The notes beneath the pieces were generated by a model, which saw only the letters and a list, made by a program, of their open reading frames with translations, was not told the DNA's origin and did no database searches. 9,329 nucleotides of DNA, from the NCBI GenBank assembly GCA_001515955.1, contig LOES01000082.1:1-9329 (forward strand). The letters are read 5' to 3'. The stretch is from Clostridia bacterium BRH_c25. Lineage in GTDB: Bacteria > Bacillota_A > Clostridia > Lutisporales > Lutisporaceae. Below are positions 1 through 8,960 of this stretch, one piece after another; positions within the stretch are counted from its first letter, which is position 1; each line of letters starts with the position of its first letter. The translations under genes were made by a program, and so were the position numbers.

Positions 1-152
1 CTGTCCTTAAGCTCAAGAGCCTCTTCCAGCGCGTTCATATCATCGTGGTTAATTATACTTGGAACACCATCCCTTATAAGTGTTCCAGTCTTGGGGTCCA
101 GTTTAACTTCATTTGTATCCGGAACCTGCTTTATGCAGACTATTATTTTCAT
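1..152 (-). CDS. etfB: Electron transfer flavoprotein beta subunit, N-terminal part (partial)
   Basis: Only the first 50 codons are in the window; the gene runs off the left edge. The protein begins [13 protein letters not shown] and continues with [15 protein letters not shown] and a [16 protein letters not shown] segment, the standard start of EtfB proteins of clostridial butyryl-CoA dehydrogenase complexes. With EtfA it forms a soluble cytoplasmic FAD- and nucleotide-binding heterodimer that exchanges electrons with acyl-CoA dehydrogenase. In several anaerobes it bifurcates electrons from NADH to crotonyl-CoA and ferredoxin. The start is the ATG at 150-152, behind a strong AGGAGG (complement at 161-166). 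It lies 21 bases after the bcd stop, so the two genes are almost certainly one transcript. etfA is expected next, outside the window. Whether this complex bifurcates cannot be judged from 50 residues. Confidence 0.93.
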
Positions 153-173: not shown

Positions 174-1313
174 TTACTTCAGTACCTTCGCCGCGATGAC
201 CATCTTCTGCACCTGCGAGGTACCTTCGTATATTTCAGTTATTTTTGCATCTCTCATCATTCTCTCTACCGGATAATCTCTTGTATATCCGTAACCGCCG
301 AAAATCTGCACTGCCTTTGTGGTAACCTCCATTGCGGTTTCTGCAGCATACAGCTTCGCCATCGCAGCCTCCGTAGAGAACGGGAGCTTTTGATCCTTCT
401 TGTCAGCAGCATTGTATACAAGGAATCTGGCTGCTTCTATCCTTGTTGCCATATCCGCCACCATCCACTGCAAGCCCTGGAAGGATGAGAGAGGCTTGCC
501 AAACTGCTTTCTTTCCTTCATATACTTAACACATTCATCCAATGCACCTTCGGCTATTCCAAGTGCCTGTGCCGCTATACCTATTCTTCCGCCATCCAAG
601 GTCTGCATTGCTATGCCAAAGCCTTTCCCTACTTCACCCAGAAGATTCTCTTTAGGTACCATACAGTTTTCAAATATAAGCTCAGTCGTACTTGAACCTC
701 TGATCCCAAGCTTTTCTTCCTTCTTGCCTATGCTAAAACCTTTAAAATCCTTTTCAACAATAAAAGCGGAGATGCCTTTGTTGCCTTTTGATTTGTTTGT
801 CATTGCAAGAATTACATATATATCGGCTTCTCCACCGTTAGTGATGAATACCTTTGAACCATCCAATATATAATTATCCCCATCCAATATGGCAACCGTC
901 TGCTGTGCTGAAGAATCAGTACCGGCATTAGGCTCTGTCAGTCCAAAGGCTCCAAGCTTTTCACCCTTTGCCAGGGGTACCAGATACTTCATTTTCTGTG
1001 CTTCTGTCCCATACTGATATATAGGATGTGCTCCAAGGGAAGTATGGGCAGAAAGTATTACACCTGTTGTTCCACATACCTTGGAGAGTTCTTCAACAGC
1101 AATCGCATAGGTCAGATTGTCCCCTCCGGCACCGCCGTATTTTTTGGGAAATGGAATTCCCATCATATCATACCGGGCCATCTTTTCCACTGTCTCTCTC
1201 GGGAATCTTTCAGCTGCATCAATCTCTGCCGCAAGCGGCTTCACGACCTTTTCACCGAATTCCTTCAAAAGCGTCCTAACCATTTCCTGCTCTTTAGTCA
1301 GGCTAAAATTCAT
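174..1313 (-). CDS. bcd: Butyryl-CoA dehydrogenase (short-chain acyl-CoA dehydrogenase)
   Basis: A 379-residue FAD flavoprotein, full length for the family. It reduces crotonyl-CoA to butyryl-CoA (reverse: short-chain acyl-CoA oxidation) in the cytoplasm, taking electrons from EtfAB. Both acyl-CoA dehydrogenase signatures are visible: [12 protein letters not shown] at residues 122-133, and [16 protein letters not shown] followed by MMRD at 336-355. The catalytic base is the glutamate of IYEGTSQVQ, about residue 363, the position used by butyryl- and medium-chain enzymes. The ATG is preceded by AAGGAGGA (complement at 1321-1328). etfB follows after 21 bases. The crt gene that often precedes bcd in clostridia is absent; bcd is first in its operon behind a 520-bp control region with a sigma-54 promoter and a Rex-like site. 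Exact chain-length preference cannot be read from sequence, but the etfB partner supports the butyryl-CoA role. Confidence 0.92.
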
Positions 1314-1340
1314 AAATGCTTCCTCCTTTATTTTGGGGCA

Positions 1341-1391
1341 AATATTCCGCGAAAAACATTTTTATTTTCATTCAAATTTCGCGTAAATATT
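1341..1391 (-). promoter_or_regulatory. Hairpin in the bcd 5' untranslated region
   Basis: AATATT (1341-1346) and CGCGAAA (1348-1354) are matched by TTTCGCG (1377-1383) and AATATT (1386-1391), giving 7 plus 6 base pairs separated by a small internal loop and closed by a 22-base AT-rich loop. It starts 13 bases upstream of the bcd ribosome binding site and lies inside the leader expected from the sigma-54 promoter. It could protect the 5' end, affect translation, or be a protein-binding dyad. It has no U-run in the minus-strand direction, so it is not an obvious attenuator. The pairing is seen; any role is inference. Confidence 0.4.
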
Positions 1392-1519
1392 TCATTAGTT
1401 GATATTGAATTGGCACTATACTCACCGAAGCTGCTCTTGTGCATTCAACATAGCAATTCCCCTCTTATAAAAATTTGTGTGTACTAATTGAAAATATTAA
1501 TTTGATGCAATGGCTTTCA

Positions 1520-1537
1520 TTGTTAAATATTTAGCAA
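1520..1537. promoter_or_regulatory. Rex-type redox repressor operator
   Basis: TTGTTAAATATTTAGCAA matches the clostridial Rex consensus TTGTTAA-N4-TTAACAA at all but one of the 14 defined positions. Rex represses fermentative and butyrate-pathway genes when the NADH/NAD+ ratio is low and releases DNA when NADH rises; bcd-etfBA operons are established Rex targets in clostridia. The site covers the expected transcription start (near 1522) and overlaps the -12 element of the sigma-54 promoter, a position where bound repressor would block polymerase. The one deviation (TTGC for TTGT on the minus strand) supplies the GC needed by sigma-54. Confidence 0.72.
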
Positions 1538-1549
1538 TTATCGTGCCAG
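1533..1549 (-). promoter_or_regulatory. Sigma-54 (RpoN/SigL) -24/-12 promoter of bcd-etfB
   Basis: Read on the minus strand the sequence is CTGGCACGATAATTGCT, which fits the consensus YTGGCACG-R-N3-TTGCW at every defined position, with GG of the -24 and GC of the -12 elements correctly spaced. It points at bcd; the expected start near 1522 gives a leader of about 209 bases. Sigma-54 holoenzyme needs an AAA+ enhancer-binding activator; none is encoded in this window. A sigma-A alternative further upstream (TTGACA at 1579-1584, weak TGAAAT at 1555-1560, spacing 18) is much poorer. Confidence 0.8.
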
Positions 1550-1651
1550 CTTCTATTTCAACAGGTATTTTATTTTATTGTCAAAAATTTATCATAGATT
1601 TCAACCCTTCAGAGTACACTCTTATCTGAATTTAAATCCTTTAAAAATATC

Positions 1652-1695
1652 AAAATATCAATCAGTGCCGGATAATCGGCGCCAATTGATATTTT
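1652..1695. repeat. Large imperfect inverted repeat, possible activator site or terminator
   Basis: The arms AAAATATCAAT (1652-1662) and ATTGATATTTT (1685-1695) are perfect complements over 11 bp. Inside them GCCG (1667-1670) and CGGC (1677-1680) also pair, around the loop GATAAT. The centre lies about 150 bp upstream of the predicted sigma-54 start, a typical distance for an enhancer-binding protein site. It could instead act as a terminator for the gene ending at 1834, since T-rich sequence follows on both strands. The symmetry is seen; the choice between these roles is open. Confidence 0.45.
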
Positions 1696-1833
1696 TTTAA
1701 CATATAATGTAACAATATTTATTGCCCATTATTTTATAACACCGCCAAACTGGCGTAAATAAAGCATTTGTATGCTTACATGTCATGTGCAAATTATTTG
1801 GCATTAATTTTGAGCAGTCTCTTTTTTGCTGCA

Positions 1834-2844
1834 TCAGATAACCTGCCGCAGCTGTTTTTCTTTTAATTCTTTAACCAGAAGGTTCAGGAACAAGCCCACA
1901 TCCGTTACTATTCCTGCAGCTTGACTGCTGCCTCTGTCACTGAGCTTGGTCACAACCGCCGGATTTATATCCACGCAGACCATTTCAACTTTTGCAGGAA
2001 GCATATTCCCGGAAGCAATCCCATGCAGCATACTGCCCAGTACAATGACAATTTCTGAATTCATAAGATACTCTGAATAAGCCTCTTGAGCCTTTATCAT
2101 ATCTGTTATAGTATCAGGCAGCGGTCCGTCATCCCTGAGACTGCCGGCCAGAACATAAGGAATGTCGTGCTTCACACACTCATACATTATGCCGGAATTA
2201 ATCCCACCTGCATTAACTGCTTCTTTTATGCCTCCGTACTTGTTCACATGGTTTATCGCCCTCATATGATTGCGGTATCCCATTTGCACTGCCCTGCCGG
2301 ATTTTGCACATACTCCCAGTGAGGTTCCGTAAAGGCTCTTTTCAATATCGTGTACTGCAACAGCATTTCCGGCTAATATACTTGAAACATAGCCATCCCG
2401 TATAAGCTCCCTAAGATACGCATCTCCTCCCGTATGAACCACTACAGGACCCAATACAAACGTGACCTTCTTACTGTTGTTGACAATGCTTTCAGCAAGC
2501 TCCCTGATAATAAGCTCATTTCTTCTTTCGGAAGAAACACAATTGTTCATAAACCCAAAAATGTCCTTATCCTCACCCTCAATCCGGTTCAGTACCCGGA
2601 CTCCCGTATCACCGCAGACCAGCCGGTCTCCTTTTTTTATGTCCCGCAGCTTCTTGCAGTATGCACCGTTCCGGTTCACCACTATCATAGCATCCATCCT
2701 CTGGTTTTGAACTATTATCCAGCTTCCTTCCCAGAATATCATTGTTTTGTAGTTTGTTGTTGAATAAAAGTCATCGGGCACATGTTTATCTATCATCGCT
2801 TCTTTTAATATTACTGAAGCTGTGTAAAAATCATTGTTATCCAT
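1834..2844 (-). CDS. Archaeal-type ornithine cyclodeaminase / LOR-SDH family protein (TIGR00300, COG1915)
   Basis: A 336-residue cytoplasmic protein. Family hallmarks are GPVVVHTGG (132-140), ILAGNAVAVHDIE (156-168), YGTSLGV (172-178), GIMYECVKHDIPYVLAGSLRDDGPLPD (218-244) and VDINPAVVTKLSDRGS (291-306). Relatives are the NAD-dependent archaeal ornithine cyclodeaminases and the C-terminal domain of cyanobacterial ArgZ/AgrE, which convert ornithine to proline and ammonia. It appears shorter at the N-terminus than archaeal members (around 400 residues from memory) and lacks the arginine dihydrolase domain of ArgZ. The start is the ATG at 2842-2844 with AGGAGG (complement 2853-2858). It stands alone behind its own promoter and a T-box leader whose likely specifier is a proline codon, supporting proline synthesis. 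This is not the mu-crystallin type of ornithine cyclodeaminase. Family assignment is firm; the reaction is inferred from relatives and regulation. Confidence 0.82.
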   Translation of the reverse strand: MDNNDFYTASVILKEAMIDKHVPDDFYSTTNYKTMIFWEGSWIIVQNQRMDAMIVVNRNGAYCKKLRDIKKGDRLVCGDTGVRVLNRIEGEDKDIFGFMNNCVSSERRNELIIRELAESIVNNSKKVTFVLGPVVVHTGGDAYLRELIRDGYVSSILAGNAVAVHDIEKSLYGTSLGVCAKSGRAVQMGYRNHMRAINHVNKYGGIKEAVNAGGINSGIMYECVKHDIPYVLAGSLRDDGPLPDTITDMIKAQEAYSEYLMNSEIVIVLGSMLHGIASGNMLPAKVEMVCVDINPAVVTKLSDRGSSQAAGIVTDVGLFLNLLVKELKEKQLRQVI

Positions 2845-2870: not shown

Positions 2871-2905
2871 AAAAAACCTCCATCCCAATAAAAGGGACGA
2901 AGGTT
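2871..2905 (-). terminator. T-box-controlled intrinsic terminator
   Basis: In the minus-strand RNA, AACCUUCGUCCC pairs with GGGAUGGAGGUU (12 pairs including two G-U wobbles) around a 7-base loop, and the descending arm runs directly into UUUUUU (complement at 2871-2876). It lies between the T-box motif and the ribosome binding site of the gene starting at 2844, the expected place for a regulated attenuator. Confidence 0.9.
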
Positions 2906-3137
2906 ATTCGCGGTACCACCCAATTTGACTATACACAGATGCCCTCCCTAGAAAAGGGCTCAAAGGTATAATCCTCTTGTATGCCAATAACGCAGGACTG
3001 CGGCAAGACTTTTCATCTGCAGCTTTGAGGGCGGGTTCAAGAAAAATAATCTCAGAAAACCTTTCAGCCGGTGAGTTTTCCTCTCTTTTAGAATCTTATT
3101 CTCTACTAATCCTCTTCATCGCCGTAAAAAGTGAATT
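2871..3137 (-). ncRNA. T-box riboswitch leader, probable tRNA-Pro specificity
   Basis: The minus strand carries the T-box signature TGGGTGGTACCGCG (complement at 2909-2922), immediately followed by an intrinsic terminator, and preceded by about 200 bases with the Stem I landmarks: an AGTAGAG segment early on, an apical hairpin around CCGGCTGAAAGG, then GAACCCGCC. By alignment with the usual GAA-specifier-purine pattern the specifier is CCC (3033-3035), a proline codon. The UGGU of the T-box would pair with ACCA, so the tRNA must have discriminator A73, as bacterial tRNA-Pro usually does. Uncharged tRNA binding would stabilise the antiterminator and switch on the ornithine cyclodeaminase-like gene. 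T-box identity is near certain; the specifier is assigned by eye, with frame-shifted readings (ACC Thr, CCG Pro) as alternatives. Confidence 0.93.
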
Positions 3138-3262: not shown

Positions 3263-3312
3263 TCAGTATATGTTAAATAATAATTTAGCACAAACTTATA
3301 ACATAATATGTC

Positions 3313-4899: not shown

Positions 4900-4975
4900 G
4901 TGGAACGGTCAAGACCGTTCCCTACGGCGGACGACCGATGGGCGCCCCTACCGGAATCCCGAAACCTCGTACCCA
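4900..4975 (-). repeat. REP-like composite element, copy B (two palindromes plus 8-bp array)
   Basis: Read on the minus strand there are three units of a degenerate 8-mer (TGGGTACG, AGGTTTCG, GGATTCCG; 4975-4952). Then comes palindrome type 2, GTAG-GGGCGCCC-ATC-GGTCGTCC-GC (4951-4927). After one base follows palindrome type 1, GTAG with the perfect 9-bp stem GGAACGGTC/GACCGTTCC around TT (4925-4900). Both palindromes begin with GTAG and end in CC(A/G)C. The cluster fills the gap between the RarD-like gene and the 85-residue gene. Confidence 0.75.
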
Positions 4976-5959: not shown

Positions 5960-5994
5960 TATGATATCCCCTCTACATTCATTCAGCCCAAATA

Positions 5995-6036
5995 CCGGAA
6001 CCCATGCAATGCGTTCCCTACAATGGGCACCCCTAC
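5995..6036 (-). repeat. REP-like element, copy C, with truncated second palindrome
   Basis: On the minus strand a half palindrome of type 2 (GTAGGGGTGCCCATT, 6036-6022) is followed directly by a type 1 palindrome (6021-5995) with stem GGAACGCAT / ATGGGTTCC, one mismatch. The missing half of type 2 corresponds to GGGCGTCCGC in copy D. The element ends five bases from the pepD stop codon. Confidence 0.65.
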
Positions 6037-7657: not shown

Positions 7658-7713
7658 CATTAAGGTGGTATTAAAGCCGCAGCATGCGCTACGGCTTTAA
7701 TACCACCTTAATG
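7658..7713. repeat. Perfect 22-bp inverted repeat overlapping the 3' end of the alcohol dehydrogenase gene
   Basis: The arms at 7658-7679 and 7692-7713 are exact reverse complements over 22 bp. The loop of 12 bases holds the TAG stop and can form three more pairs (AGC with GCT). The right arm is coding sequence (codons for the final IKVVLKP), so the left arm is an inverted copy of the gene's last codons. There is no U-run right after the stem on the minus strand, so it is not a canonical intrinsic terminator, although it may stop transcription or shield the mRNA 3' end. Confidence 0.85.
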
Positions 7714-8819: not shown

Positions 8820-8864
8820 ATTAAACCTCCTGTATTTATTGTCTCTCGGTTTGAATTCCCTAAA

Positions 8865-8960
8865 GCGGACGCCCAATGGGCGCCCCTACAGTGGAACGCA
8901 TAAAATGCGTTCCCTACAACCCGTACCCCGGAACCCCACAACCTCGAAACCTCGTAACCT
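8865..8960 (-). repeat. REP-like composite element, copy D (8-bp array plus two palindromes)
   Basis: On the minus strand, five contiguous 8-bp units follow the stop codon of the upstream gene at once: AGGTTACG, AGGTTTCG, AGGTTGTG, GGGTTCCG, GGGTACGG (8960-8921). Then come a type 1 palindrome, GTAG with the perfect 9-bp stem GGAACGCAT/ATGCGTTCC around TTT (8917-8891), and a type 2 palindrome, GTAG-GGGCGCCC-ATT-GGGCGTCC-GC (8889-8865). Compared with copy B, the order of the two palindromes is reversed but the orientation is the same. Confidence 0.75.

Follow-up and report, generated by a model that had tools for sequence, protein, structure and literature searches.

A sigma-54 promoter and a Rex-type operator share the -12 box upstream of bcd: a candidate two-input control site for lysine fermentation

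Upstream of bcd in the window, as we call the whole 9,329-nucleotide stretch of DNA analysed here, a sigma-54 promoter and a Rex-type operator overlap, with the letters TTGCT common to both. We propose, with a probability of roughly 0.8, that this is a composite control site at which a lysine activator acting with sigma-54 would switch on bcd-etfBA and which Rex would block until NADH rises. The AND-gate logic follows from the overlap, and Rex binding and repression are predicted from it.

The fused element upstream of bcd

The controlled operon and its upstream region comprise the following features.

3..152, minus strand: start of etfB, the operon's second gene, truncated at the edge of the window (match to electron transfer flavoprotein beta at E 3.1e-25)
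174..1313, minus strand: bcd-type acyl-CoA dehydrogenase of 379 aa, the controlled gene (best NCBIfam match AcrC, at 570.7 bits, below the cut-off of 640)
1314..1521, minus strand: predicted 5' untranslated leader of about 208 nt, placed from the position of the -12 box
1520..1537: Rex-type operator, an 18-mer reading TTGTTAAATATTTAGCAA on the plus strand and TTGCTAAATATTTAACAA on the minus strand, where its left half is the -12 box
1533..1548, minus strand: sigma-54 promoter TGGCACGATAATTGCT, with the -24 TGGC at 1545-1548 and the -12 TTGC at 1534-1537
1666..1681, no strand assigned: palindrome TGCCGGATAATCGGCG, proposed site of a lysine-fermentation activator, 117 bp from the -24 box

Bcd/Etf reduces crotonyl-CoA using NADH. 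In the relative G008, the bcd orthologue is followed by etfB (assigned by eye), etfA-type, crt and hbd genes.

Read on the minus strand from 1548 to 1520, the sequence upstream of bcd is TGGCACGATAATTGCTAAATATTTAACAA, in which a sigma-54 site without mismatch takes up bases 1-16 and a Rex-type palindrome, imperfect at a single base, the last 18. The promoter meets TGGCAY-N5-TTGCW, with GG and GC 10 bp apart, and is the only sigma-54 site without mismatch in the window; with up to two mismatches the pattern occurs 13 times against 11.6 expected, which is chance level. The minus-strand 18-mer reads TTGCTAA-ATAT-TTAACAA and thus differs once from TTGTTAA-N4-TTAACAA, the full form of the Rex operator. 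As an earlier note on this DNA had claimed, the sole mismatch between TTGTTAAATATTTAGCAA and the consensus TTGTTAANNNNTTAACAA, the G at 1534, is also the position that creates the GC of the -12 box on the other strand, where its complement is the C of TTGC. Taking this C as -12, the transcription start would therefore lie near 1521-1522 and the 18-mer would span about -15 to +3, in line with the same note's view that the Rex-type site covers both the -12 element and the start site.

A scan of the window with TTGTTAANNNNTTARCAA at up to two mismatches returned 1520-1537 as the sole place, matched on both strands; shuffled controls gave a mean of 0.27 matches, and two or more in 14 of 200 shuffles. 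Because such single-window statistics are modest on their own, it is conservation that carries the case.

Other features of the window are recorded here for completeness. A T-box leader (2890-3128, minus strand; Rfam RF00230, 107.5 bits) precedes the gene at 1834-2844, which matches the NPN-dependent ornithine cyclodeaminase family TIGR00300. Short palindromic units, REP-like by eye, are dispersed between the genes; they fall into two repeat families, 75-88% alike, with copies at 4918-4951 and 8856-8889 and at 5986-6033 and 8882-8929, and similar stretches lie near 3312 and 4926. An inverted repeat of 26 bp (7658-7713, 96% complementary, 4-nt loop) is located at the end of a zinc alcohol dehydrogenase-like gene.

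Conservation and spread among relatives

The pattern TGGC-N7-TTGCTAA-N4-TTARCAA was searched in 99 relatives of G001 and then in 391 relatives of G008, the two sets overlapping. Exact matches were present in 7 of the 391 genomes, every one directly upstream of bcd, and G005 carries the element before bcd with one altered base in the -24 box (CGGC), making eight genomes with the element at this position (G001, G004, G005, G008, G012, G018, G021 and G023). Allowing one mismatch across the 391 genomes yielded 18 matches versus 4 for the reversed pattern; ten of the 18 were not at bcd, six of these being inside ORFs and four intergenic.

Alignment of the window promoter with those of the eight genomes revealed that all 14 half-site columns (TTGCTAA and TTAACAA) are invariant, as opposed to none of the four central columns of the 18-mer, none of 40 upstream flank columns and one of 37 downstream (columns 4-40). 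The flanks are unalignable, with a mean pairwise identity of 0.31-0.34, and the distance from the element to the ATG varies, yet the -24 and -12 boxes are kept in 9/9 promoters, one with CGGC. Removing G021, a near duplicate of G023, alters none of these counts. The overlap of the -12 box with a Rex half-site described in the earlier note is thus conserved with exact spacing. That note had also named a pattern that would speak against it, namely orthologous promoters that retain the sigma-54 box while TTAACAA drifts, and the alignment contradicts this: TTAACAA is identical in 9/9, and the box and its palindromic partner are kept together, in register. Because the sequences are related, this is the conservation of one lineage and not nine independent events.

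Two trivial origins were considered and set aside. A chance match is ruled out by the conservation across relatives, and local synteny alone is an unlikely cause, since the gene upstream of bcd differs between four groups: the window with G004; G001; G005; and G008, G012, G018, G021 and G023, which have the same upstream gene.

The window Bcd was compared with 25 of these genomes, of which 11 contained a match at E ≤ 1e-130. Eight of these, at 78-93% identity, carry the fused element, and it is absent at the three diverged orthologues (G006, G011 and G024; 69-75% identical). Identity of Bcd alone does not decide presence of the fusion, because the bcd loci L002-L007, at 75-78%, have neither the element nor a sigma-54 site within 1.5 kb (best 2-3 mismatches). 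Among 80 bcd upstream regions scanned, only L001 (in G001), the closest relative in the genome collection, has the fused element, in the same arrangement and with different central bases. G001 is labelled Calditrichales bacterium MX18-03, a label that looks doubtful given its clostridial-type bcd and lysine-fermentation loci. A further 49 genomes, drawn from 50 of the 80 bcd loci (L021 and L052-L080 being left out and L001 covered by the earlier search), were searched with a close variant of the fused pattern, which had no exact match there and 28 matches at one or two mismatches; none of the six inspected (L302, L305, L313, L322, L326 and L328) precedes bcd. By eye, the L313 site precedes a MaoC-type hydratase-like gene and the L322 site a pyridine-nucleotide oxidoreductase-like gene. 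Within what was searched, the fused sigma-54 box is limited to one clade.

Candidate regulators and their sites

That the window organism has Rex, sigma-54 and the activator we infer from its relatives, among them G004, whose Bcd is 93% identical. Rex (PF06971) was found in seven of the eight genomes with the element. The search of G021, an assembly in many contigs, returned no Rex match although the element is present; around bcd this genome is nearly identical to G023, which has Rex. The recognition segment TASQIRQDLNCFGGFGQQGYGYNV is identical in all seven proteins and one residue away from that of the solved Rex 3wg9, to which G004 Rex aligns with an E value of 3.5e-89.

Rex control of clostridial crt-bcd-etfBA-hbd uses the same operator consensus, and the 400 nt upstream of bcd at the 80 loci contained a Rex site at up to two mismatches in 26 cases, versus 0.9 per 80 loci in dinucleotide shuffles, and at up to one mismatch in 9 (L001 included), versus 0.1. 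Rex control of bcd thus looks widespread, as judged from these predicted sites. Genome-wide, sites with at most one mismatch numbered 130 compared with 65 for a reversed-pattern control on both strands; at only twice the control, many single sites are chance, and the loci inspected lend support and are not a census. Thirty-eight loci with candidate sites were inspected, either selected or first among the matches listed. Sites with at most one mismatch precede a NuoE/HoxE-like gene (L343; L093 and L153 by eye), FeFe-hydrogenase-related genes (L157, L336 and L332), a TM1266 hydrogenase regulator (L348), a CoA-disulfide-reductase-like enzyme (L154), another pyridine-nucleotide oxidoreductase (L081) and OrtA (L346), and an SDR oxidoreductase is preceded by a perfect site at L151 and, by eye, by a site at L340. 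Other inspected sites fall within ORFs or precede genes with no evident redox function. The variant half-site with C may be tolerated by Rex, because it occurs without a sigma-54 box at a few sites (L154; L160, before a carboxyl-transferase gene; and L161, similar by eye).

Sigma-54 is encoded in all eight relatives carrying the element, and TGGCAYN5TTGCW, scanned with the added requirement of a non-G base at a fixed distance downstream, matched 156 times in the eight genomes versus 6 for reversed-pattern controls. Among the 150 matches listed, TTAACAA stands at this offset in seven, which are exactly the bcd promoters, and in none of the other 143. With one mismatch it occurs once among the listed sites, at the G018 kdd promoter (four mismatches to the Rex consensus), and with two mismatches five times.

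Related arrangements were seen in other registers. In G005, a maoC-like gene is preceded by a sigma-54 site whose TTAACAA is shifted by one base. Two other lineages have maoC-bcd operons in which a Rex-like site comes after the sigma-54 site at another spacing: at L084 (G002, same contig as L027; around 1470-1520) the Rex-like site has one mismatch and begins 22 bases from where the -24 box starts, and at L186 (G006, just before 7924) it has two mismatches and begins at 15 bases, compared with 11 bases in the window. The L027/G006 arrangement is suggestive only, perhaps of a separate origin of the same logic.

The palindrome at 1666-1681 is near chance when the window is taken alone (0.41 matches expected). 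A GCC(G/A)-N6-CGGC palindrome is nonetheless present upstream in all nine bcd promoters (the window and eight relatives), with 89-198 bp from its far end to the -24 box. In G004, the strict form TGCCG-N6-CGGCA has three exact copies in all: before bcd; just before the gene of a PAS-AAA-HTH activator, in which a PAS domain was detected; and some 200 bp upstream of a sigma-54 site leading into a two-gene CoA-transferase operon, a copy sought in this one genome. Downstream of the G004 activator gene come a sigma-54 site and genes for kdd (3,5-diaminohexanoate dehydrogenase), lysine 2,3-aminomutase, KamC and lysine 5,6-aminomutase, which identify the locus as one of lysine fermentation. Encoded beside kdd-kamA and its neighbors, the activator probably controls lysine-fermentation genes.

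Orthologues of this activator, at 69-80% identity, are present in six of the seven other genomes (in G008 only in part, at the end of a contig) and absent from G021. All seven activator genes are followed by a sigma-54 site and kdd, six of the kdd genes being 82-90% identical to that of G004. The palindrome adjoins the activator gene in each of the seven genomes. With the pattern loosened by one base per arm, a form that also matched inside ORFs, six of the seven genes have the palindrome 6-28 bp ahead of their called start; in G008, where the activator start is cut off, a weaker palindrome sits just behind the gene, before the kdd sigma-54 site. The proposed lysine-fermentation regulon thus has the palindrome at both the kdd-kam activator locus (in the loosened form) and bcd. 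Being only 6-28 bp before the called start, the activator-side copies could be sites of self-control.

At up to one mismatch the palindrome exceeds its control in each of the eight genomes but is common (per strand, 99 versus 34 in G004 and 362 versus 269 in G001). Of 18 exact loci listed, 11 are inside ORFs and seven intergenic, the latter comprising two at bcd, one at the activator and four before an ABC-transporter-like gene (L225, L226, L231 and L232), with no sigma-54 site detected within 400 nt. A fifth copy before such a gene was seen in G008 (L271, near 6476). No strict palindrome was found within 400 nt upstream at 30 sigma-54 loci outside the bcd, kdd and CoA-transferase promoters.

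Alternative readings, known systems and proposed mechanism

Two rival readings credit only one of the two sites with a function. If the site were a sigma-54 promoter only, the -12 box would fully explain the left half of the 18-mer, and TTAACAA might be kept as an easily melted start region, the surroundings being 70% A+T, with no Rex binding. We regard this as improbable, as the exact 7-mer with C and the exact N4 spacing persist in 9/9 promoters while the central bases change, TTAACAA is missing at this offset from the other 143 listed sigma-54 sites, and upstream regions of bcd elsewhere are strongly enriched in Rex-type sites. The converse reading, a Rex operator with an ordinary sigma-70 promoter elsewhere and an incidental sigma-54 match, draws on the many other bcd loci that carry Rex sites without a sigma-54 site and on sigma-70-like matches in the region (4 found versus 3.5 expected). 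It is very improbable in view of the -24 and -12 boxes retained in every promoter amid unalignable flanks, the upstream palindrome retained with them, and the 156 to 6 excess of sigma-54 sites of such quality. We would hardly expect the 18-mer to be read by another protein, such as a CRP/FNR-type regulator: palindromes with TTG...CAA arms also serve FNR-type proteins, but TTGTTAA-N4-TTAACAA in full is the operator of Rex, the DNA-binding segment of Rex in the relatives matches that of solved Rex, and several other such sites precede hydrogenase and NAD-linked genes.

A different objection concerns the upstream palindrome, which might be a terminator or the site of another regulator even if sigma-54 and Rex both bind, in which case the activator would not be the lysine one. 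T-runs follow the bcd palindrome in G005, G008 and G012 and longer inverted repeats surround it in some genomes, so that some copies may terminate transcription of the gene upstream; the exact palindromes ahead of an ABC-transporter-like gene in four genomes and the 16-36 sigma-54 activator-domain matches per genome also leave room for another regulator. Against this, the palindrome is kept before bcd despite four different upstream genes, it adjoins the activator gene, the only three exact copies in G004 are those at bcd, the activator and the CoA-transferase promoter, and a terminator scan of window positions 1300-1900 found none. On balance we consider this alternative unlikely.

Repressors at enhancer-dependent promoters have precedent in the CcpA sites at Bacillus sigma-L promoters, such as that of the levanase operon; there the repressor and signal differ from those proposed here, and we know of no sharing of the -12 box. 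Rex sites at adhA1/adhA2 of C. beijerinckii are said to have been reported by Zhang in 2014. These genes are under SigL and AdhR control and also belong to the Rex regulon (PMC7017808). Like bcd here, they combine a fermentation dehydrogenase, a sigma-54 promoter served by an enhancer-binding protein and an assignment to Rex; unlike bcd, no overlap of a Rex site with the -12 box is described for them in the accessible part of that source (PMC7017808). As cited in the same paper, Rex controls crt-bcd-etfBA-hbd in clostridia (PMC7017808), the same repressor family and the same kind of operon as here, generally without the fusion, given the single fused case among 80 upstream regions.

Sigma-54 control of bcd has also been described. 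Operons containing bcd are predicted to be under sigma-54 through CrbR, XcgR and YctR, and SigL binds the C. beijerinckii crt-bcd promoter in vitro (Nie 2019, PMC6615313). These systems resemble the present one in being predicted sigma-54 bcd-etf operons with activators of their own, and the CrbR operon has named upstream activator sites; in contrast to the present case, the text available from this source makes no mention of rex, lysine or kamA (PMC6615313). In the open-access literature searched, represented by titles and the starts of abstracts and with subscription papers mostly outside, we found no Rex site overlapping a sigma-54 -12 box and no Rex repression by competition for that element, and neither there nor in the accessible text of Nie 2019 (PMC6615313) a lysine-fermentation activator. 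Within this literature, sigma-54 control and Rex control of such genes appear to be known separately, and the novelty would seem to lie in the shared element and the link to lysine.

In the composite reading that we favor, sigma-54 RNA polymerase would occupy the -24 and -12 boxes of the bcd promoter, and the PAS-AAA-HTH enhancer-binding protein would bind the palindrome at 1666-1681 and open the promoter in response to lysine or a pathway signal. At low NADH/NAD+, dimeric Rex would bind the 18-mer over the -12 box and start site, excluding sigma-54 polymerase, and the activator could not rescue such a promoter because Rex would cover the -12 element, which sigma-54 has to hold in the closed complex; high NADH would release Rex. 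Because Bcd/Etf uses NADH on crotonyl-CoA, the operon would be switched on by the arrival of lysine products at high NADH, and the enzymes of this NADH-consuming step at the end of lysine fermentation would be made only with both substrate and reducing power. The sequences themselves show the two motifs, their fusion and conservation, the palindrome shared upstream and, in relatives, genes for Rex, sigma-54 and the activator; the binding events, the competitive exclusion and the signals are what we infer from the arrangement of sites.

How the element arose can be sketched tentatively, at somewhat below even odds: a T-to-C change in an ancestral Rex half-site may have made the sigma-54 -12 box, by which bcd joined the lysine regulon and kept its redox control, TTGCTAA being held since by both proteins, with Rex competing directly with sigma-54 polymerase for the -12 element.

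Sigma-54 promoters are usually regarded as controlled by activators from a distance. A core promoter element that doubles as a metabolite-sensing operator would be a compact two-input gate, for substrate and NADH, on the energy-conserving Bcd/Etf step, and the shared element would make competition between Rex and sigma-54 directly measurable. The reading also predicts a regulon for lysine fermentation to butyrate in amino-acid-fermenting bacteria.
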